Shown in pieces: positions 10,169 through 31,686 of a stretch of 31,686 nucleotides of DNA. Each line of letters begins with the position of its first letter. Position 1 is the first letter of the stretch. The position numbers and the translations under genes are program-made. The DNA comes from a virus, in the IMG/VR virus record IMGVR_UViG_3300010151_000077, positions 1 to 31,686 of that record; one strand, 5' to 3'. The notes under the pieces were generated by a model. The model was not told the origin of the DNA and did not search any database. It was given only the letters and a program-made list of their open reading frames with translations.

Positions 10169-11570
10169 TTTCTAATCCCGGAATATTATATAATATGCTA
10201 TTACTTTGTGGCCGGGGACCTAATACTATACATGTCATATTAACACTTGTATATAATGGATGTTGCCGGTCTGGGTCTATTTCCCATGGATGTTCACTAT
10301 CCCAATCATAACCTAAATCTTGAATGATCATAGGTCTTTGATTAAATAATTTACCTATAGTAACATTAACAGTTTGTCCATAAAACCCATTTGATCCATA
10401 TACAGGATGAGTTAATTGAGCCAAATCCTGCAATTTCTGCCATATTTTTGTGGTCGTTTTCACACCTTCAATTGCAACCGTAAAATCAAATGATATAGTG
10501 CGTTCAAACCCGGTATATTGATACCTAGAATCGGCTCTTCCCTGATCTGGGGTACTATCCCATGCAGGTGCAAAGTTATCCGATAACATACCTAAATAAG
10601 CTTTAAATGTAATATCACTGAATCGAAAATCTATTAATGATTCATCTGTATCTTTATTAATATCATTAATTAATTTTAACGAATTTTTAAAATTACCGGT
10701 ACGGTTTTCTTCTAGACTATAATCAGATTCCTCATACGCCTTCTCGATCTCTTTTTCAGTCAATGCCTGGCTATCTCGTATTTTTCGAAAATCTATGATT
10801 GTAGTACTATGTGCACGGTCTGGAATTTGTCCGTATGAAATAGCTCTATATTTTCCTAATGTCTTTGTAGGATGTTGTACAGATGTTGCAGCTTCGAATA
10901 TTTCTCCAATCAACTCCCAGCCAACTTTGTCAGAGTTTCTCATTATAAAATCGTTTATTTCGGCTTGATTTTGTAAATTTGCTTTAGTCGTATCTTCATA
11001 TCTACGTATGGTAGTGGCTCCTATACCGCCTATTGAATGAGGTCCTGTTAAACCAGATATTGTGTTTATAGGCATGCCTTTATATCCACCAAAGAAGTTT
11101 CCGATTTTTTGGATCTTCTTTAACAAGCCTCCGACTTTAGTAGATTTACCAAGTATTAGTTCATCTCTTAAGTTAAGTAATCTGTTACCTGTTTGTTCTG
11201 TGTTTAATGGTATACGTGCCTTAATGATGCCTTCATAAGTTGAAAGCTTAGATCTTACAATTGGTGGCATATGTCGATCGGTCCGTATTCCTAACGGAGC
11301 TCCTATTGTATTTGTTAAAGGTGATATTGGATCATATATTTTAGTTAAACCAACCCCAGCTCTTCCAGCAACATTTTCTGTATTAGGGTTCATTAACTGT
11401 AAAGCAAATTGTTTAATATTAAATATAAGGCCTTTTGGTGATATTAAAAAATTGGCTACACGAACAGTATCTCTTATAATTGCGGTAGGAGAAGGACGTC
11501 CAATAATTTTTGTTATCTTTTCAGGATTATCTTTACGAGATAAATCAGATGTTAAATCAATTAATCCCAT
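10161..11570 (-). CDS. Putative baseplate / tube-cap protein (469 aa)
   Basis: Not assigned to a named T4 gene. The C-terminal ~150 residues are beta-rich and look like a tube- or hub-associated fold: FERTISFDFTVAIEG, KIWQKLQDLAQLTHPVYGSNG, GQTVNVTIGKLFNQRPMIIQ, DLGYDWDSEHPWEID, then a final strand with TCIVLGPRP. The N-terminal half is low in motifs and carries glycine-rich stretches. The gene is coupled to the tape measure gene upstream (shared base at 11570) and overlaps the LysM-like gene by 8 bases downstream. Tape measure next to tube-cap or hub proteins is the usual order in contractile tails, so a role in starting tube polymerisation on the baseplate is a reasonable inference. Confidence 0.55.
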   Translation of the reverse strand: MGLIDLTSDLSRKDNPEKITKIIGRPSPTAIIRDTVRVANFLISPKGLIFNIKQFALQLMNPNTENVAGRAGVGLTKIYDPISPLTNTIGAPLGIRTDRHMPPIVRSKLSTYEGIIKARIPLNTEQTGNRLLNLRDELILGKSTKVGGLLKKIQKIGNFFGGYKGMPINTISGLTGPHSIGGIGATTIRRYEDTTKANLQNQAEINDFIMRNSDKVGWELIGEIFEAATSVQHPTKTLGKYRAISYGQIPDRAHSTTIIDFRKIRDSQALTEKEIEKAYEESDYSLEENRTGNFKNSLKLINDINKDTDESLIDFRFSDITFKAYLGMLSDNFAPAWDSTPDQGRADSRYQYTGFERTISFDFTVAIEGVKTTTKIWQKLQDLAQLTHPVYGSNGFYGQTVNVTIGKLFNQRPMIIQDLGYDWDSEHPWEIDPDRQHPLYTSVNMTCIVLGPRPQSNSILYNIPGLENG

Positions 11571-13762
11571 TATTTTCTCCTATACGAATCTGCTGTTCTT
11601 ACTACTTGACCTACTAATTGGCCATCCATTTCAATAACCGTACCTTGTTCCAGTATTTGACGTAATAATGCATTTGTTGTTGCCAATGCCTGAGCGACGG
11701 ATCCCATTCCTCCGCCGGTATTTGAACTACGATTTGGTGTAGTATTACCAGTTTCTGCACCACCACCAAGACCATGGCTCGGACTCATTGATACGCCGTC
11801 GTTTTTTGTACCCTGGAATATAGTTCCTTCTCTTGGAGATGATACTACTGGTCCTCCATTTGGATCTATAGATACATCACCTGCATTTAAAAATTTATAT
11901 CCCATAGCAGTAATACCTATAGCCGCTATTGCACCTAATATTGGTCCTAAAAATGCAAATGCTTTCATTACTGCCATACCTATATTTTTCACTAATCCTT
12001 TAGATTCCAAAAGTTGTTTTTTCTTTGCAAAACCGCCTTCTTTTGCCGCCATAGCTAATTTGACTCCCTGTATTGCTTGTTGGCCTAACATGACCCCTTT
12101 AATAGCTGTGTATATACCTAATATTGTACCTAATATCTTTTGCATGTTTGTTAATCCTTCGGTACTGAAGGTGATTAATCCATGTAATCCTGTGAATGCA
12201 TCGACTATTGGTATAAGTAGTAATGATATTCCTTGTACTATTGGCGTAATTGCAGAAAATAATTGTACTAACACTTTTCCAGCTGGAATTAACGCGGCTG
12301 TGAGCTCATCTTTTAATACAGCAAAATCTTTTGCAATTTGACCGGAAGCTTCTTGCTGTGCCAATAACGCCTTTAACTGTTCTGGTTGCATGCCGGCAAG
12401 TTCTGATGCAGATAATCCTAATGCCATGGCTGCCTTCATCTGTGCTTCATCACCATTGCCTAATTTTTCTTGTATTGCCAATGATTTAGTTAATTCATCA
12501 ACAGTCATACCAGTTGCTGCGGCTAATTTTCGTTGAGCCATTGGACGCATTGCATCAAATTCTGCTAAAGAACCTACATTAGATAAAACCTCTTGAGTTG
12601 CTTCTGCTATTTTTCCATCCAATGCTAATTGCCGAGCTTTATCAAAGTTTATCATTTTACCAGTCATTGCTTGGAATTCGAATTGAGCTGCTATAGAATC
12701 TTCAAATTTTAATAAGCCATCAGCAACACTTGCCATTGTCTTTAAACTAACACCCATTTTAGCTGCTTCTACTGCCGCCTTTTTTAACGACTTTACATTA
12801 CCTCCAAAATACTTTGCAACATCTTTGGCATTTGCTGCTATATCTGCGGTAACTGTACCAACTGATACTCCGGCTTTTAAAGCTGCTGCCGATACATCTA
12901 GTAATGAATTCTTTGCATCTTCACCTCCCATACCCATTCGCATGAATTCATTGGTAACTGCTGCAGCCTTTTCTGCTCCTATACCAAATGATCTTCCTAT
13001 ATCTGCTATATTCGCAGCTTGCTTGCCTGATAACATGGTTCCGATACCAAACTCTTTGATAGTTGCTTTTTGTACTGCCAATATATCTGTTGATGTTGCT
13101 AATTCTATACCTTTAGCTGCTGAAGCCGCTTTTGCTTCCTTTACTAACGCTTTGGATTGTGATAATGTGAGACCAGTTGCCTCGGCTATGCCTTTGGCTT
13201 TCTTTTCAAAGTTTATAAATACCAAGGCGAGTCCTGCAATGATTGCGGCGACTATAGTAAATGGGTTAATCAATGCCATGGCGGATGCACTAAATGCTGA
13301 TAAGGCTGCTCCTGCAGATCCATTTTTAGCTAAGACTGCCGCGGCTTTATTTAAACTTGTAGTTAATGCACTTCCTAATTTATCTATACCAAATGCCTTT
13401 ACTAACATATTACCACCTGGTAATTTTTTTATAAACGTCTCAATATTGCCTACCAAGTCTTGAGCTTGATCATTAATCAAGCTCATTTGTTTAGCAATGC
13501 GATCATTTAGTTTTGATTGGTGTTTTATTTTTTTAAGTACTGATTCATAACCTTTTGCTTCATCCGCTAGCTCTTTATTTCCAGCTTTTTGGGCGGCGAC
13601 ACTTAATTGCATAGCTTTTGTTATATCTTGTTGAATAGAAAGTTGTTGAGATTTCGCGCCAATTAATTTATCAACATTTGCGCCTAACTCTTTATCAATT
13701 TTTGCTATATTATCACCTAGACTAGCCCATTGATCTTCTAATTCTTTTGGATCTTTTGCCAT
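11570..13762 (-). CDS. Tail tape measure protein
   Basis: A 730-residue, alanine-rich, largely helical protein that sets tail length by spanning the tube lumen. Residues 1-110 are coiled-coil (GDNIAKIDKELGANVDKLIG onward). A hydrophobic segment at about 160-184 (MALINPFTIVAAIIAGLALV) and two more toward the C-terminus (ITPIVQGISLLLIPIVDAF and FLGPILGAIAAIGITAMGY) are the membrane-active segments usual in tape measures. The C-terminal ~90 residues are glycine/serine-rich. Its place after the tail-chaperone position and before the baseplate hub genes is diagnostic. T4 gp29 is its functional counterpart, but sequence similarity is not claimed. Confidence 0.88.
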   Translation of the reverse strand: MAKDPKELEDQWASLGDNIAKIDKELGANVDKLIGAKSQQLSIQQDITKAMQLSVAAQKAGNKELADEAKGYESVLKKIKHQSKLNDRIAKQMSLINDQAQDLVGNIETFIKKLPGGNMLVKAFGIDKLGSALTTSLNKAAAVLAKNGSAGAALSAFSASAMALINPFTIVAAIIAGLALVFINFEKKAKGIAEATGLTLSQSKALVKEAKAASAAKGIELATSTDILAVQKATIKEFGIGTMLSGKQAANIADIGRSFGIGAEKAAAVTNEFMRMGMGGEDAKNSLLDVSAAALKAGVSVGTVTADIAANAKDVAKYFGGNVKSLKKAAVEAAKMGVSLKTMASVADGLLKFEDSIAAQFEFQAMTGKMINFDKARQLALDGKIAEATQEVLSNVGSLAEFDAMRPMAQRKLAAATGMTVDELTKSLAIQEKLGNGDEAQMKAAMALGLSASELAGMQPEQLKALLAQQEASGQIAKDFAVLKDELTAALIPAGKVLVQLFSAITPIVQGISLLLIPIVDAFTGLHGLITFSTEGLTNMQKILGTILGIYTAIKGVMLGQQAIQGVKLAMAAKEGGFAKKKQLLESKGLVKNIGMAVMKAFAFLGPILGAIAAIGITAMGYKFLNAGDVSIDPNGGPVVSSPREGTIFQGTKNDGVSMSPSHGLGGGAETGNTTPNRSSNTGGGMGSVAQALATTNALLRQILEQGTVIEMDGQLVGQVVRTADSYRRK

Positions 13763-13774
13763 TACATTACTTTA

Positions 13775-14041
13775 TTATCGTTCCCATGGAAATTTTGCGT
13801 ACTTTGCTGCTGCCGGTTTTCTGCCGTACTTTTTTTCAAAATCTTTGATCTGTTTTTTGAGTTCCTTTCCGTGGAATTCTATACCATCAATCGCGGATAT
13901 TACTTCTGGGTCGTCTTTTAATGAACGTAACGCCCTTTTAACTTTTCCTTTAAAAAAGAATTTGAGTAATGATAGACCTAAACCTTCATCTATCTGTTTA
14001 ATTTCTTCTAATGCACGTTTTTCGAATTTACTTGTAGACAT
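13775..14041 (-). CDS. Small basic helical protein between chaperone and tape measure (88 aa)
   Basis: Not recognised. It is 88 residues, very rich in K and E, apparently all helical (KFEKRALEEIKQIDEGLG, ELKKQIKDFEKKYGRKP), without cysteine or a membrane segment. It lies 12 bases before the tape measure gene and has its own ATATTTAT element 18 bases upstream plus an AAAAGGA ribosome binding site. Two ATG codons are present close together; the reported start at 14041 is 7 bases after the first, out-of-frame ATG. The position suggests a tail assembly helper, inferred from context only. Confidence 0.65.
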   Translation of the reverse strand: MSTSKFEKRALEEIKQIDEGLGLSLLKFFFKGKVKRALRSLKDDPEVISAIDGIEFHGKELKKQIKDFEKKYGRKPAAAKYAKFPWER

Positions 14042-14059: not shown

Positions 14060-14067
14060 ATAAATAT
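14060..14067 (-). promoter_or_regulatory. ATATTTAT element before 88-aa ORF and tape measure
   Basis: The minus strand reads TGATATTTATTAAAAAGGA, where TGA is the stop of the preceding frame (14067-14069). It lies 18 bases before the ATG at 14041 and could drive the tape-measure/baseplate operon. Confidence 0.55.
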
Positions 14068-14357
14068 CAACGTCTTTTCGTTTTAGGGGTGCTTACACGA
14101 GATTTGGATTGCATCTTTTTCATTGCCTTCTCCTGTTCTTTATTTTGATCTTCAAATAGCTTGTTTAATTTACGTATATAATATAATCTCATATATACAG
14201 GCATATTATAAACTTCTGTATATGAAAATGCTCCATTACTGTGATACGTTAAATCAAATATTTGATCTGCTTTATGTAGTTTATATTTCCGCGTCAGGCC
14301 AAAAAAAGTCCAATCCGATGGCAACTTGACTGCGAAATGTATCGCCGGACTCTCCAT
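14067..14357 (-). CDS. Probable frameshift extension of the gp26-like protein (tail-chaperone GT-type ORF)
   Basis: The open frame has 96 codons, but its first ~19 codons lie inside the end of the gp26-like gene (77-base overlap). The candidate ATG at 14357 has no convincing ribosome binding site (GCCGG directly upstream) and no promoter element. The recognisable part begins after the overlap: GLTRKYKLHKADQIFDLTY, then FSYTEVYNMPVYMRLYYIRK, a helical segment, and a K/Q-rich basic tail. A run of seven T (14307-14301) in the overlap lets ribosomes move from the gp26-like frame GAC-TTT-TTT-TGG into this frame by +1 (or -2). The product would be ~357 residues. This is the arrangement of G/GT tail assembly chaperones just before the tape measure. 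Independent translation from 14357 is the alternative. Confidence 0.65.
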   Translation of the reverse strand: MESPAIHFAVKLPSDWTFFGLTRKYKLHKADQIFDLTYHSNGAFSYTEVYNMPVYMRLYYIRKLNKLFEDQNKEQEKAMKKMQSKSRVSTPKTKRR

Positions 14358-15232: not shown

Positions 15233-15721
15233 TTAGAATTGTAATATTGCGTAATCATATTTCAATGTCAATTCAATATTAACGGGGTCTTCTGTAGCCC
15301 AATCCATATCACCGAATGTTGCTGCTGATATAAATGCTCCTTTTAAAGTCCATTCTTCAACTTTATCACCTACAGGTCCTAAAGAATTGAAAGTAATGTC
15401 TTTCTTATAAAAGTCTGCATATCCATCTCTACCAGTAACAGATTCATGATGTAAACGTACCCATTCCATGACTGCTTGAGCACCTGATGGTACAACCGGA
15501 TCATATAATGTTACAGTAACGTCTTGCCATCTAGTTTTACCTTTTAATTTACGCTCAACATTGATATGATCGAGAATAACTTCTCCTTGATCTAATGATG
15601 GTCGTGATGCGGCTTTAATAAGGTACGAAGGTATCCCTTCAATATACATGATAAACCTATTTGCCATTTTAGGTTCATATGCTGTAAAAAACAATTCGGT
15701 TGCTTCAAGTGGTTCTGCCAT
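15233..15721 (-). CDS. 19: Tail tube protein, gp19 type
   Basis: A 162-residue major tail tube subunit, whose rings form the inner tube through which DNA passes. The typical gp19-like pattern is seen: an N-terminal FFTAYEPKMANRFIMYIEGI, then YLIKAASRPS, a beta-hairpin region KGKTRWQDVTVTLYDPVVPSG, AVMEWVRLHHES with GRDGYADFYKKD, and a C-terminal EEWTLKGAFISAATFGDMDW and LTLKYDYAIL. The length matches T4 gp19 (163 aa). It has its own ATATTTAT element, a GAGGAA ribosome binding site and a strong terminator, which suits a product needed in many copies. The sheath gene is directly upstream. Confidence 0.92.
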   Translation of the reverse strand: MAEPLEATELFFTAYEPKMANRFIMYIEGIPSYLIKAASRPSLDQGEVILDHINVERKLKGKTRWQDVTVTLYDPVVPSGAQAVMEWVRLHHESVTGRDGYADFYKKDITFNSLGPVGDKVEEWTLKGAFISAATFGDMDWATEDPVNIELTLKYDYAILQF

Positions 15722-15763: not shown

Positions 15764-17878
15764 TTATTCCGGAAATGATGCTCCAGTTGGTAGAATATTA
15801 AAGTCAACTACAATAAATTCTGCTGTTTTAGCAGGTTGCATAAATATTTGACCTCTCATCTCATTTCTATCTATTACATCAGCAGTATTATTAGTACCAT
15901 CCATAACAACTTTGAATGCATATAAACCTTGTCTTTGTTGTATACTTTCAAAATATGGATTAACTATACTTAAGAATCGGTTTCTAGTTGCTGCTGTATT
16001 ATTTTCAAACACTAAAAACTTAGTAGATGATGCAATAAATTTCTTAGCTGCTATTAATAATCTACGTACATTTACTCTATCCAATGCAGATGCCTTTTTC
16101 TGCAATGTTTTTTGTCCAAATACAGTAACACCTGCATTAGGGAACGTTGCAATTGGATTCACATTTGAATCATACAATGTATCTCTATTAGCATGAGTCA
16201 ATTTACGTTCTGCTTGGATTGCTATATCAATTCCACCTCTATTAAGACCGGCTGGTGCAAACCATGGCGCTGCTACTCGATCATTAAATGCATACACGGA
16301 AGGAATTACAGTAGATGCTGGTACCCATACATTACGACCTAATTCATTATCAGGTATCTTAATCCATGGCCAATATTCAGCTACATAATTAGAATCTCTT
16401 CCTTCTGCTTTAGCAGTTACATTTGGTATAGACGTTTCTCCATACAATACTGGGTCCATTACTAAGAAACAATCTCCACGGTCTTCTACCATACCAACTG
16501 CTTCTGTTAATACAGTTGCATGATTTTCAGCTGCGTCACATAATCCTGGTAATGATAATACGTTGATATCATATTCATCTTGATTTTTTAATAATTTAAT
16601 TGCATCAATATATGCATTTTTATCAGATGTTAAACTTAAATTAAATCCTTGTATATTATCGTCACTAATATCCTCATTAAATTTCATTGGATGTACTACA
16701 GATCCATCACTACCATTTGCAAATGCCCCATTTGCTGCGGCTGGTAAGGATGATGATAATGCATTATCTCTTATTGTACCATTTTCATCTAAATAATTTA
16801 AAGTTTTTTGGTGAACTGTTACACGTACATATTTAGATCGATTCGCGTAATCACCTGAATATTGTATATATGGATCACTAGACCCAATTCCTGCAATTGT
16901 TGCTTTTTGATCACCGATTACTTTTGCAATATAATTTGATGAATTTGGGTCTAATGTAACATTACTATATTGTTCTACAATTTTCTTTCTATTTGATGTA
17001 TCATCTCCACGTCGGATTGATAATTGGAAAGTACCTTTTGTATTATTAACATTGCTAACTTCCCAACGTATATTATTTTCAGAGCCATTTGGTAATAAAC
17101 TATTAGTACCTAATGTACTTTCACTGTTTTGGTCTGCTCCGTATGATAATGTTTCTAATGTAAAACAATTTGCAGCAGTAGTTGTATTTGTTCCTCCGGC
17201 TAATGTTAATACATCGCTAAACGTCGTACCTGATCCAGTATCTACTGTAATTGAATTACCGGATGTTCCAGCTGATGAGGCTGTTAATTGTAATGCCGTT
17301 ACTGTCGCTGTTGCATCTACACCAATTGCTGCATTGTCAATTTCAGTAACTAAGCTAGCGATACCAAGTGCTAAGGTACTACCTGTTGCAAAATAAAATA
17401 TAGGCGAACTATCTACCGGAATACCTCCTACAGGATCGGCTGCTATAAATCTATATTCTGTTTCACCTACTGTAATTTGTACTTCATCTTCAGCTGCAAA
17501 ATTACTTCCTATAGTTAATGACCCACTTGCCACTGCACTACCAATTGTTGTAGATGATGATATGATAGATGTTGCAACTGCCGCATCTGAATGCATAGGA
17601 CGTACTACAGTCAATGTATCTGCGTATTTTAAATATTCTTGAGCTGCATAATTTGTTAAATACTTATAAGAATTTTTACTTGCTCCAGACCCGGATTCAA
17701 ATTTTCCACCAAACAATTGTACAAATTCTGAATAACTTGATACTGTTGTTGGTACATTTGCAGGACCTTTTGCGGTTGGTCCAATTACTGCTGCACCTAT
17801 TGCAGCAACTCCTGCCGGTAAGAACGACTGGTCGACTTCGTTAGTAAAGACTCCAGGTGAGACTATTTTTTCAGCCAT
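15764..17878 (-). CDS. 18: Contractile tail sheath protein, gp18 type
   Basis: A 704-residue sheath subunit that contracts to drive the tube into the cell. The N-terminus EKIVSPGVFTNEVDQSFL with GPTAKGPANVP, the central ALKSL-type block (YDINVLSLPGLC), PWIKIPDNELGRNVWVPAS, FNDRVAAPWFAPAGLNRGG and the C-terminal FKVVMDGTNNTADVIDRNEM with FIVVDFNILPTGASF are classic for T4-like sheaths. Residues ~115-233 form an extra beta domain rich in S, T, A and G (SGSLTIGSNFAAEDEVQITVG through TLAGGTNTTT) that looks inserted. Total length is slightly above T4 gp18 (659 aa). The leader contains an ATATTTAT element and an ATGGAG ribosome binding site. Confidence 0.95.
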   Translation of the reverse strand: MAEKIVSPGVFTNEVDQSFLPAGVAAIGAAVIGPTAKGPANVPTTVSSYSEFVQLFGGKFESGSGASKNSYKYLTNYAAQEYLKYADTLTVVRPMHSDAAVATSIISSSTTIGSAVASGSLTIGSNFAAEDEVQITVGETEYRFIAADPVGGIPVDSSPIFYFATGSTLALGIASLVTEIDNAAIGVDATATVTALQLTASSAGTSGNSITVDTGSGTTFSDVLTLAGGTNTTTAANCFTLETLSYGADQNSESTLGTNSLLPNGSENNIRWEVSNVNNTKGTFQLSIRRGDDTSNRKKIVEQYSNVTLDPNSSNYIAKVIGDQKATIAGIGSSDPYIQYSGDYANRSKYVRVTVHQKTLNYLDENGTIRDNALSSSLPAAANGAFANGSDGSVVHPMKFNEDISDDNIQGFNLSLTSDKNAYIDAIKLLKNQDEYDINVLSLPGLCDAAENHATVLTEAVGMVEDRGDCFLVMDPVLYGETSIPNVTAKAEGRDSNYVAEYWPWIKIPDNELGRNVWVPASTVIPSVYAFNDRVAAPWFAPAGLNRGGIDIAIQAERKLTHANRDTLYDSNVNPIATFPNAGVTVFGQKTLQKKASALDRVNVRRLLIAAKKFIASSTKFLVFENNTAATRNRFLSIVNPYFESIQQRQGLYAFKVVMDGTNNTADVIDRNEMRGQIFMQPAKTAEFIVVDFNILPTGASFPE

Positions 17879-22721: not shown

Positions 22722-25700
22722 CTAACCTTTTAATTTTGATTTTAAATCGTCAATTTCTGATTTTAACTCTTTGATAGATTCGATGAGATGAGGTACTAAT
22801 TGTTCATATTGTATAGTCTTATACATATTATTATTGTTAGCAAAAAATGGTAATTCCGATTCTTTTATAATACCAGGAAATATCTTTTCAACATCTTGTG
22901 CAATTAATCCAACTTGAGACTTTTCATCGCGATATTTCCAATCATACTGAACTGCTTGTAATTCACATACTTTAGATAAACTGGAAGTTATATTGTAAAT
23001 ATTATGTTTTAATCGTTGATCGGATGGTGTAGTTGAATATGCTATAATATCTCCAGCTGCATGTAATGTACCATTACTTGCAACCTGTACTCTAGCTAAA
23101 TTGCTAGTCCATATTTCAAATGTATCATCTGATGGGAATCCAAATTTGGTATTGGTGTCACCGGTATGAGCTATAAAACCGGCTATTTCATCAACTGTCC
23201 CAGTGCCGCCTCCACCGCCGTAACTTCCAGTATAATATACTTGGCCAGTAACTATATCATACATTAATGTATTTAATGTAGATGCAGTCGTTGATGCACT
23301 TATAAATAAATTACCACTTGCGCTTATATTACCTGAGGCTGTTATATGACTTTGTATACTAAGTGGTAAAGGTGATGATATAGAGGCCGAGGTTATTGTT
23401 AACTGGAGACAGTTACTCGAAGATTGAAATGAATGTATGGGACTAGTATATGTAATTTTTTGGGATTGGTCTGCGGCATCATGTATTGTGATATAATTGG
23501 TGGCATCAGTTGATAAATTACCTAGCCGGGTAAGATGGTCAGCGAAAAATTTGAGACCATTCGTTGGTGTCCCAAATCCGGAAAGATTATCTCCACGGCC
23601 GATGTATGCATCAGCTCCTCCAAATGTCAACATAGGCCAATAGTTAAAAGTTTCTTCATCATCTATTTGTGATGATGAATATTCAAAGTTTATAAGAGCT
23701 CCTAGACTATTCGGCCGGATACTTAATGATGAAGCCGTTATATCTCCATGGACTTTCAATGATCCAGAAATACCTACATCCACAGATGATGTTAATTCTG
23801 TATTGGCATCAAACCATAATGAGCTGGCTCCGGCGTTTAATGCATATGATGCAGTACCATGCAAGCTACCGGTAAATGATTTAGCAGTAACAGATTCGGA
23901 AACATATAATGATCCAGTTATTTGCACATCTCCGGAGAAGTTAGCTCTAGATTCTGTAATTCGTAGTATTGATGGTTGGTCGGCTGCACCGTAATAATTC
24001 CTTATTACAAAGTCTTGTGAGTTGATGGTAACTGCGGAGTTAGCTACATCTGAATCTTCGATTAATACCCGTGATACGCTGTTACCTACACATATCGTAT
24101 TTGATGTCTTTTCAAATTTAATTCTATTTCTAGGAATACCAAATGCATCTAATACTTGACCATGACCAATAAAACTATCTGTAGTTGCTCCTATACGTAA
24201 TATTGGAAACCAATCGTATACATCTTCTTCTCCGGAATAAGATGATGATAATCCAAAATTTATCATGTCTGTACCATCTGGTGCTATAGATAATGACGAT
24301 GCTGTTATATCTCCATGAACTGTTAATGATCCAGTAATACCTACACTCGCAGATGATGTTAATTCAGTGCCGGCATCAAACCACTGATCTGAGTTTGCAG
24401 CTGTTTCTGCAATTGTGGCATATGAAGCTGACATTACATATGATGCTGATAAAGCACTACCTGCATGTGAAGCGGAGGGCCATGATGTTGATGATACTAT
24501 TTGTCCGGAGGAACTCATTACAAGCATATTAGGATTAGTTGTTGTTATAGTATCAGTTATATCTACCGGGTCTATATAAATAGCTTGATTGCGATTATGA
24601 ATATATACATTATCTTGATCAATAATTGTATGCGGGGTCTCAAACGTGAATTCAAATGCTGTGGTTTCAATATTTACACCACTTCCTAATTCAAATGATA
24701 TTGGTATTACGCCATTGGTCATGTATACATGATTAACATTTCCCGGACCTAGTATGAAATTTGAGCCGGCATCGGCTGGAAAATCGAGTTCATTATTTTC
24801 AACAGGTAATACAATTTTATATGCTCCAACACTAGCTAGTGCCCGGTCGAGTAACGTAATTAATGTTTGACCACCTAATCGAAAATCTTTGAAAAATTCA
24901 TCAGCTGATGAATCAAAATCTCCTTTCACACGTAATTGAGTCAATCGCACATATCCAGTATAATTAAATCCAACTTGGGCGCTAATGTCTAATGAACCGG
25001 TACCAGTATCATTAGTTGCGGCTAGCCATATGGCTTGATGTGATGCATCACCGGCTGCAATTATTGATTCTGTAGTAGTTGTATATACTGACGTTTGGAA
25101 TGCACTACCAGTAATGTCGCCGGCATTAATTGAACCTGTAAATTGATGAGTATCAGTAACAGTATCACCAAATATAGTTGAGCCAGAACTAAATGACTGG
25201 GTCATATAAGATACTGATGATGATATAATATAATTTTGAGCTATTATATTACCAGTAGTTGTGATATCATCTTTAACTATTAATGGCGTGTTTATTTCGA
25301 ATCGCGATGCAGTGGCCACAGCAATATTTGAATGTTCACTTGTACCAATGACTACAGATTTAGAGCCTTGAATGTCAATTGATGTATTAGAGATGCTAGC
25401 TTGATCTTGTATGTTAACGTAGTTAGAAGAATTACCTACGGATATGACATCATCGTTTGAGTTAAAGAAAATCCTATTTTTAGGAATTCCGGAGATATTT
25501 AAATTAGATTTATGACCTATATAACCATGAAATCCACCAAAAAGTAATAAAGGGCTAAAACTTTCTCCATCTGGTACATCGCCATCAGCTCCGGATGATG
25601 AAATGCTAAATTCGATAGCCGGCGTTGATGCCGGAAAATTTGGGCGTATTGATAATGAGGATGCAGTAATATCATTGGTTATTATATCATTTAAATGAGC

Positions 25701-25739
25701 ATCGCTACCACTATATATTATCTTTTTCCAGCTGGCCAC
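22722..25739 (-). CDS. Tail fibre with C-terminal Peptidase S74 intramolecular chaperone
   Basis: A 1005-residue fibre. The last ~100 residues are an S74 (endosialidase-type) chaperone that helps the fibre trimerise and then cleaves itself off: SDQRLKHNI at residues 906-914 (cleavage expected before S906), LQAVQYDWK, VGLIAQDVEKIFP, and a final coiled coil IESIKELKSEIDDLKSKL. The N-terminus MASWKKIIYSGSDAHL is shared with the other large fibre and is probably the tail-attachment end. A module of ~85 residues (ITASSLSI... I-G-x-G/K... G-x-P-x-N-x-I/L-x-F... VGN) appears three times, at about 24-112, 478-561 and 667-754. Helper segments such as ASGNISASGNLFISAS are typical shaft repeats. Confidence 0.9.
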   Translation of the reverse strand: MASWKKIIYSGSDAHLNDIITNDITASSLSIRPNFPASTPAIEFSISSSGADGDVPDGESFSPLLLFGGFHGYIGHKSNLNISGIPKNRIFFNSNDDVISVGNSSNYVNIQDQASISNTSIDIQGSKSVVIGTSEHSNIAVATASRFEINTPLIVKDDITTTGNIIAQNYIISSSVSYMTQSFSSGSTIFGDTVTDTHQFTGSINAGDITGSAFQTSVYTTTTESIIAAGDASHQAIWLAATNDTGTGSLDISAQVGFNYTGYVRLTQLRVKGDFDSSADEFFKDFRLGGQTLITLLDRALASVGAYKIVLPVENNELDFPADAGSNFILGPGNVNHVYMTNGVIPISFELGSGVNIETTAFEFTFETPHTIIDQDNVYIHNRNQAIYIDPVDITDTITTTNPNMLVMSSSGQIVSSTSWPSASHAGSALSASYVMSASYATIAETAANSDQWFDAGTELTSSASVGITGSLTVHGDITASSLSIAPDGTDMINFGLSSSYSGEEDVYDWFPILRIGATTDSFIGHGQVLDAFGIPRNRIKFEKTSNTICVGNSVSRVLIEDSDVANSAVTINSQDFVIRNYYGAADQPSILRITESRANFSGDVQITGSLYVSESVTAKSFTGSLHGTASYALNAGASSLWFDANTELTSSVDVGISGSLKVHGDITASSLSIRPNSLGALINFEYSSSQIDDEETFNYWPMLTFGGADAYIGRGDNLSGFGTPTNGLKFFADHLTRLGNLSTDATNYITIHDAADQSQKITYTSPIHSFQSSSNCLQLTITSASISSPLPLSIQSHITASGNISASGNLFISASTTASTLNTLMYDIVTGQVYYTGSYGGGGGTGTVDEIAGFIAHTGDTNTKFGFPSDDTFEIWTSNLARVQVASNGTLHAAGDIIAYSTTPSDQRLKHNIYNITSSLSKVCELQAVQYDWKYRDEKSQVGLIAQDVEKIFPGIIKESELPFFANNNNMYKTIQYEQLVPHLIESIKELKSEIDDLKSKLKG
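23724..23816 (-). repeat. Intragenic direct repeat, copy A (S74 fibre)
   Basis: This is one of two diverged copies of a ~93-bp unit, offset by exactly 567 bases (189 codons). It encodes WFDANTELTSSVDVGISGSL and the start of the following module. Shared blocks include GTTATATCTCCATG and GATGATGTTAATTC (plus strand). Confidence 0.75.
24291..24383 (-). repeat. Intragenic direct repeat, copy B (S74 fibre)
   Basis: The partner of copy A. It encodes WFDAGTELTSSASVGITGSL, so most differences are conservative. In-frame spacing shows duplication of a fibre module rather than an insertion. Confidence 0.75.
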
Positions 25740-31496: not shown

Positions 31497-31504
31497 ATAA
31501 ATAT
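31497..31504 (-). promoter_or_regulatory. ATATTTAT element before nucleotidyltransferase-like gene
   Basis: The minus strand reads TGATATTTATTATTATGGAG. The TGA is the stop codon of the collagen-like ORF, and the ATG at 31480 is 16 bases downstream. Confidence 0.5.
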
Positions 31505-31686
31505 CAATTCACCTTCACAGTACCTCTATCGTTCCATAATTGACCACTAGATAACCCCCTGGAGTCTGTAGGTAGGCTACTGCCATTTAAAGATGTAATA
31601 GTTGGTGTACTTCCATCAGCTCCATCAGCTCCATCAGAACCATCTGATCCTGCGGCACCTGTTGCGCCTCGTGCACCTGTTGCTCC
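31504..31686 (-). CDS. Collagen-like fibre protein, C-terminal end only
   Basis: The frame is open from the window edge to TGA at 31504-31506, giving the last 60 residues of a longer protein. The first ~26 residues are G-x-y triplets (GATGARGATGAAG, GSDGSDGADGADGS), a collagen-like triple-helix shaft as found in many phage fibres. A short end follows with TPTITSLNGSSLP and a final GQLWNDRGTVKVN. The start and any anchor domain are outside the window. It precedes the nucleotidyltransferase-like gene with no gap. Confidence 0.8.
   Translation of the reverse strand, partial: GATGARGATGAAGSDGSDGADGADGSTPTITSLNGSSLPTDSRGLSSGQLWNDRGTVKVN

Follow-up and report, generated by a model that had tools for sequence, protein, structure and literature searches.

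How is the reading frame that overlaps the 3' end of a gp26-like phage tail gene translated when it has to be entered in a different frame? The question is raised by a 31,686-base virus fragment (IMG/VR record IMGVR_UViG_3300010151_000077), the whole of which is referred to here as the window. A sequence-only reading of this DNA had proposed programmed frameshifting, as in the G/GT tail chaperones, at a run of seven T residues, a proposal that is strongly supported by the comparative evidence presented here. Judged from the sequences of the window and its relatives, the locus very probably encodes a tail assembly chaperone produced in two forms from one gene, the long form arising by a +1 frameshift.

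The locus lies on the minus strand of the window, within a cluster of myovirus tail genes, in the order sheath, tube, gp26-like gene, extension, 88-aa ORF, and gene of tape measure size (Table 1). The gp26-like product matched PF12322 (T4_baseplate) above the family cut-off with an E value of 2.5e-6 and matched phrog_150 with an E value of 9.7e-10. The latter family was also matched by 41 of 42 fusions. No match in Pfam or PHROG was obtained for the 730-aa tape-measure-type gene, and none at the curated cut-offs of these databases for the 88-aa ORF, which resembles a frame at the same place in the uncultured phage LR756508 (L003). Elsewhere in the window, and by eye only, the C-terminal stretch (SDQRLKHNI...) of the ORF at 22722-25739 resembles a tail-fibre end of the intramolecular-chaperone (peptidase S74) type, and the ORF at 31504-31686 is collagen-like (GATGARGATGAAGSDG).

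Table 1. Features of the tail chaperone locus (window coordinates unless another sequence is named)
Feature	Coordinates	Strand	Basis or remark
Tail sheath	15764..17878	-	phrog_23 E 5.6e-73; PF04984
Tail tube (gp19-like), directly upstream of gp26-like gene	15233..15721	-	phrog_4542 E 8e-25
gp26-like ORF1, short form (TAC-N, "G" product), 286 aa	14281..15141	-	PF12322, phrog_150
TTTTTTT slip site	14301..14307	-	YTT_T invariant in relatives
T-like C-terminal extension, 77 codons + stop, predicted to be translated only after +1 shift	14067..14300	-	
Predicted long form (TAC-NC, "GT"), 357 aa	14067..15141	-	TGGC read as one step
ORF2 as mechanically called, 96 aa, ATG at 14357	14067..14357	-	
88-aa ORF between extension and tape-measure-type gene	13775..14041	-	
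Tape-measure-type gene, 730 aa, two genes downstream	11570..13762	-	synteny (position + size) only
Hairpin after the slip in a sub-lineage of relatives	~3757-3774 in L017		also in L019, L021, L022, L024, L026, L029, L055, L057, L061

The ORF1 protein ends ...GLDFFWPDAEI, encoded together with its stop by GAC TTT TTT TGG CCT GAC GCG GAA ATA TAA, in which the codons TTT, TTT, and TGG at the slip occupy 14307-14305, 14304-14302, and 14301-14299. The sequence-only reading was exact in its description of this region: the overlap of ORF1 and ORF2 is 77 bases (14281-14357), and the seven T residues within it have the coordinates and frames that it gave. Its fusion of about 357 residues was also borne out, because translation through a +1 shift gives 357 aa. 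Past the slip the +1 frame continues with GGC (14300-14298), CTG, ACG, CGG, and AAA. The -1 frame, which had been said to be blocked by a TGA, indeed has this stop at 14296-14294. With the extension in the +1 frame and the -1 frame closed by TGA, the site does not belong to the -1 X_XXY_YYZ class.

Relatives of gp26 were fetched from 2.9 million viral contigs. At least 598 were confirmed, and the best 80 were read; removal of duplicates and incomplete sequences left 76 distinct sequences, counting the window, Microcystis phage Mel-JY01, and Flavobacterium phage immuto. A further search that started from the extension yielded 48 distinct loci, and some contigs are common to the two sets. The relatives are 44-86% identical in gp26. 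An extension of about 80 aa lies in the +1 frame and is joined at the slip in 76/76 of the sequences retrieved with gp26 (from the best 80 of at least 598), and TTTTTTTGGCCT is accompanied by the extension in +1 in 48/48 of the loci retrieved from the extension side, these counts not being independent because the relatives share descent. Alignment of relatives had been suggested earlier as a check, and it showed that the relative frame of the extension does not vary among them and that a T-rich slip codon is conserved. The contrary pattern, a separate downstream gene or an in-frame fusion, was absent from the relatives examined in the window's group, and no in-frame fusion was present among the 48 extension-side loci.

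At the slip itself, the P-site and A-site codons of the 76 sequences (from the best 80 of at least 598) are TTT_TGG (68), TTT_TAC (4), TTT_TTC (2), and CTT_TGG (2), so that the A-site codon is UGG, UAC, or UUC. Only TTT and CTT occur as P-site codons, each time followed by T; the YTTT bases are thus invariant in this set, and base-by-base conservation is highest there. A YTT_T in every sequence has the P-site re-pairing expected of a +1 site of the UUU_N class. The gp26 stop follows no more than six codons after the slip in the relatives. Outside the slip, TTT makes up on average 83% of the Phe codons in these genes; given this usage, gene by gene, the chance of finding TTT at every P site is ~1e-9, a value that assumes independence among relatives that share descent.

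Past the overlap the extension has dN/dS values of 0.04-0.41 in pairs with a defined value, similar to those of gp26 itself, and by this measure it is under purifying selection. ORF2 might alternatively be a separate gene, possibly coupled to gp26, that is translated from its own start; an in-frame ATG (14357) is present in the window, and the annotators of Mel-JY01 called a separate gene. However, the extension frame has no ATG, GTG, or TTG between the previous stop and the slip in 34/76 sequences (from the best 80 of at least 598), and none before the slip in 18/48 of the extension-side set, so that those members offer no separate start ahead of the conserved part. Moreover, conservation across the window's group is lacking for the codons and residues that precede the T run in the ORF2 frame, and translation from an own start leaves the exact conservation of YTT_T unexplained. 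We regard an independent start as extremely unlikely, and probably neither the ATG at 14357 nor the residues ahead of the slip are used. The recognizable part of ORF2 had been said to begin only after the overlap; conservation instead starts at the slip, some 20 bases inside the overlap.

A sequencing or assembly error in the homopolymer of an otherwise fused gene could also create two frames, and such errors probably do occur at this site. The record of Stenotrophomonas phage IME-SM1 (L184) has five T residues at its -1 slip versus six in Bhz51 (L304), probably owing to a deletion in the homopolymer that makes the annotated gp26 of IME-SM1 longer. However, the frame relation of the window recurs in every relative examined and in the genomes of six isolates (Mel-JY01 and immuto and, more distantly, SP-15, LIS04, GXN1, and RM378), and no relative is fused in frame. 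Because isolated phages have the same arrangement, it is not an assembly error; this explanation retains practically no probability and is refuted for the window's group.

The sequence-only reading had left the direction of the shift as +1 or -2. The frame is the same in all relatives of the window's group, and variants of the site make +1 the most likely shift and disfavor -2. A -2 shift, as occurs in phage Mu, would reach the same frame with one extra Phe inserted. Re-pairing is perfect for both shifts in the T7 run of the window, which alone therefore cannot decide the direction. In contrast, re-pairing after a -2 shift fails and after a +1 shift works at TTC_TTT_TGG (L039), AAC_TTT_CTA (L003), TTC_TTT_CGN or CAT (L005, L191, L197, L199, L205, L214, and L215), and AAT_CCC_AGT (L208, L211, L213, and L217). 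In 28/28 additional +1 sequences, the site offers a P-site codon capable of pairing again one base forward. Transcriptional slippage that adds or removes a U at the T run would suit the seven consecutive T residues of most members, but the frame is kept without the run in TTTCTTTGG (L004 and L044), TTCTTTTGG (L039), AACTTTCTA (L003), TTCTTTCGT, and the CCCAGT members. Since these variants bar -2 re-pairing and lack a long run, both explanations are minor rivals only, the -2 shift being very unlikely and transcriptional slippage even less probable.

For the +1 shift we propose that most ribosomes read gp26 to its stop and yield the short form. A fraction carrying peptidyl-tRNA-Phe on the second TTT would slip one base forward, from UUU to the overlapping UUU, with the P-site TTT (14304-14302) re-pairing on TTT (14303-14301) while UGG waits in the A site. 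Reading would then resume at GGC (14300) into the extension of about 80 aa, yielding the long form. We infer that this fusion is made and that the two forms stand in some ratio. If they work as in lambda G/GT, coating of the tape measure protein would fall to the short form and recruitment of tail tube subunits to the long form.

Possible stimulators of the shift were sought around the slip. No stable downstream RNA fold was detected in the window (z 0.44). Over the group, downstream folding has a mean z of -1.34 versus a synonymous-codon control, indicating some excess of structure, and no single downstream structure was shared by the entire group. A sub-lineage of ten relatives has a 7-bp hairpin at +7 to +24 after the slip, with the gp26 stop in or beside the loop and with paired changes on both arms; this hairpin is absent from the window. 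A shuffled-arm control gave 3.1 such hairpin sequences on average and 8 at most, versus 10, the pairing having been chosen after the folds had been viewed. No clear Shine-Dalgarno-like element was seen in the window. Over the group, an upstream signal of this kind was positive relative to in-gene positions but had only a weak effect relative to the synonymous-codon control (mean z -0.53).

We infer a function as tail assembly chaperone from the position of the gene, its family membership, and what has been published on the role of gp26/gp51. Besides the PF12322 and phrog_150 matches, the extension of the window's group aligns with those of T4-like and jumbo phages with hhalign probabilities of 95.6-95.7% (T4-like, 95.7%). 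The predicted long form consists of the short gene plus a C-terminal extension at the sequence level only, and the gene lies between those for tail tube and tape measure, the latter identified by synteny only. An AlphaFold model, which covers the gp26 part only (pLDDT 83), had no significant match when searched with Foldseek against the PDB. The highest probability among the matches listed was for the HK97 tail assembly chaperone 2ob9 (0.38, with a non-significant E value of 1.7 and a TM score by target of 0.49), a hint rather than proof of a chaperone fold.

A distant group comprising Bacillus phage SP-15, Listeria phage LIS04, Streptococcus phage GXN1, and related metagenomic contigs also has the extension in +1, with slip sites that are mostly UUU_CGN and in some cases CCC_AGT. 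CCC_AGT replaces the Phe codon at the same position in a sub-group (L208, L211, L213, and L217) and is another +1 slip codon. The extension is in the -1 frame in cyanophages, with T_TTT_TTC in all of 55 distinct sequences, in the other T4 relatives VH7D, P19, pf16, ACP17, OLIVR6, and Bhz51, and in jumbo phages. These -1 users slip at the same Phe-Phe position, with the site T_TTT_TTY. T4 gp51 matches positions 13-280 of phrog_150, whereas T4 gp26 matches only to 235, and gp51 is therefore a gp26-like domain plus extension encoded as a separate gene, in agreement with the citation of Vladimirov et al. 2022 in PMC10885494. In S-PM2, the short gene annotated as "gp51" matches positions 240-281 only.

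The +1 and -1 users form clusters in a gp26-domain tree, which requires at least three changes of direction. One single +1 clade is not rejected by the AU test (p 0.485), and we therefore claim no number of switches. The tree places a -1 group (L010 and L294/L298; TTTTTTCTTC) beside +1 users with a support of 87%, a possible reversal of direction. On balance, we favor the view that three routes to the long form have been exchanged at one homologous site, namely a -1 shift (T_TTT_TTY), a +1 shift (UUU_U, UUU_CGN, or CCC_AGT), and separate paralogous genes (T4 gp26/gp51), and that the +1 class is large and environmentally common, part of it having the UUU_CGU motif of eukaryotic viruses.

The T4-like tail chaperones gp26 and gp51 were described by Vladimirov, Gautam and Davidson (2022, Virology 566:9-15), as cited in PMC10885494 and PMC12846349, and as cited the paper accounts for T4-like phages by a short and a long form encoded in separate genes. 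In a 2016 review, T4 is named as the exception to the conserved G-T frameshift (PMC5009743). The window's group shares with these phages homologous proteins (PF12322/phrog_150), a related C-terminal extension, and, in many relatives, the place beside tube and tape measure. The difference is that T4 has two separate genes and the window's group a single gene with a +1 shift at YTT_T, where cyanophages and most other relatives examined shift by -1 at T_TTT_TTY. Lambda G/GT, a programmed -1 frameshift (Xu et al. 2004; reviewed in PMC5009743), similarly derives two products, a short and a long one, from a single gene that directly precedes that for the tape measure, with the slip near the 3' end of the first ORF. 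However, lambda uses tandem slippage on X_XXY_YYZ, whereas re-pairing of a single P-site tRNA is proposed here, and the likeness of the gp26-like gene to lambda G is one of gene arrangement. A probable +1 shift at the tail chaperone gene of the haloarchaeal myovirus HSTV-2, as cited in PMC5009743, has the same direction and position in an archaeal virus and is likened here by description only.

The proven +1 site of influenza A PA-X is UCC_UUU_CGU (Firth et al. 2012, PMC3498833). At both sites tRNA-Phe on UUU would slip one base forward, and the SP-15-like sister group has UUU_CGU itself; the window differs in having UUU_UGG and bacterial translation, and no common descent is implied. Escherichia coli prfB has the +1 site CUU_UGA, with P-site re-pairing to UUU. 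Two relatives of the window (L004 and L044) carry CUU_UGG, with the same re-pairing; the A site here holds a sense codon, and a consistent Shine-Dalgarno-like stimulator is lacking.

Already known are the chaperone family, backward slips within it, and poly-T sites for -1 slippage in T4-like phages. We found no report of a +1 class in this family, although Vladimirov et al. 2022, represented here by the papers that cite it, may already note +1 members. The forward slip in a T4-type tail-chaperone gene thus appears to be new. The source phage is a T4 relative known only from metagenomic DNA, and the long form is missing or is split into hypothetical proteins in the annotated phage records examined, an annotation that can now be corrected. 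The many phage +1 sites supplied here have a defined P-site codon. T4 relatives split at one homologous junction into -1 users, +1 users, and one user of separate genes, a natural series that lends itself to the question of how a programmed frameshift changes direction while its product is kept.
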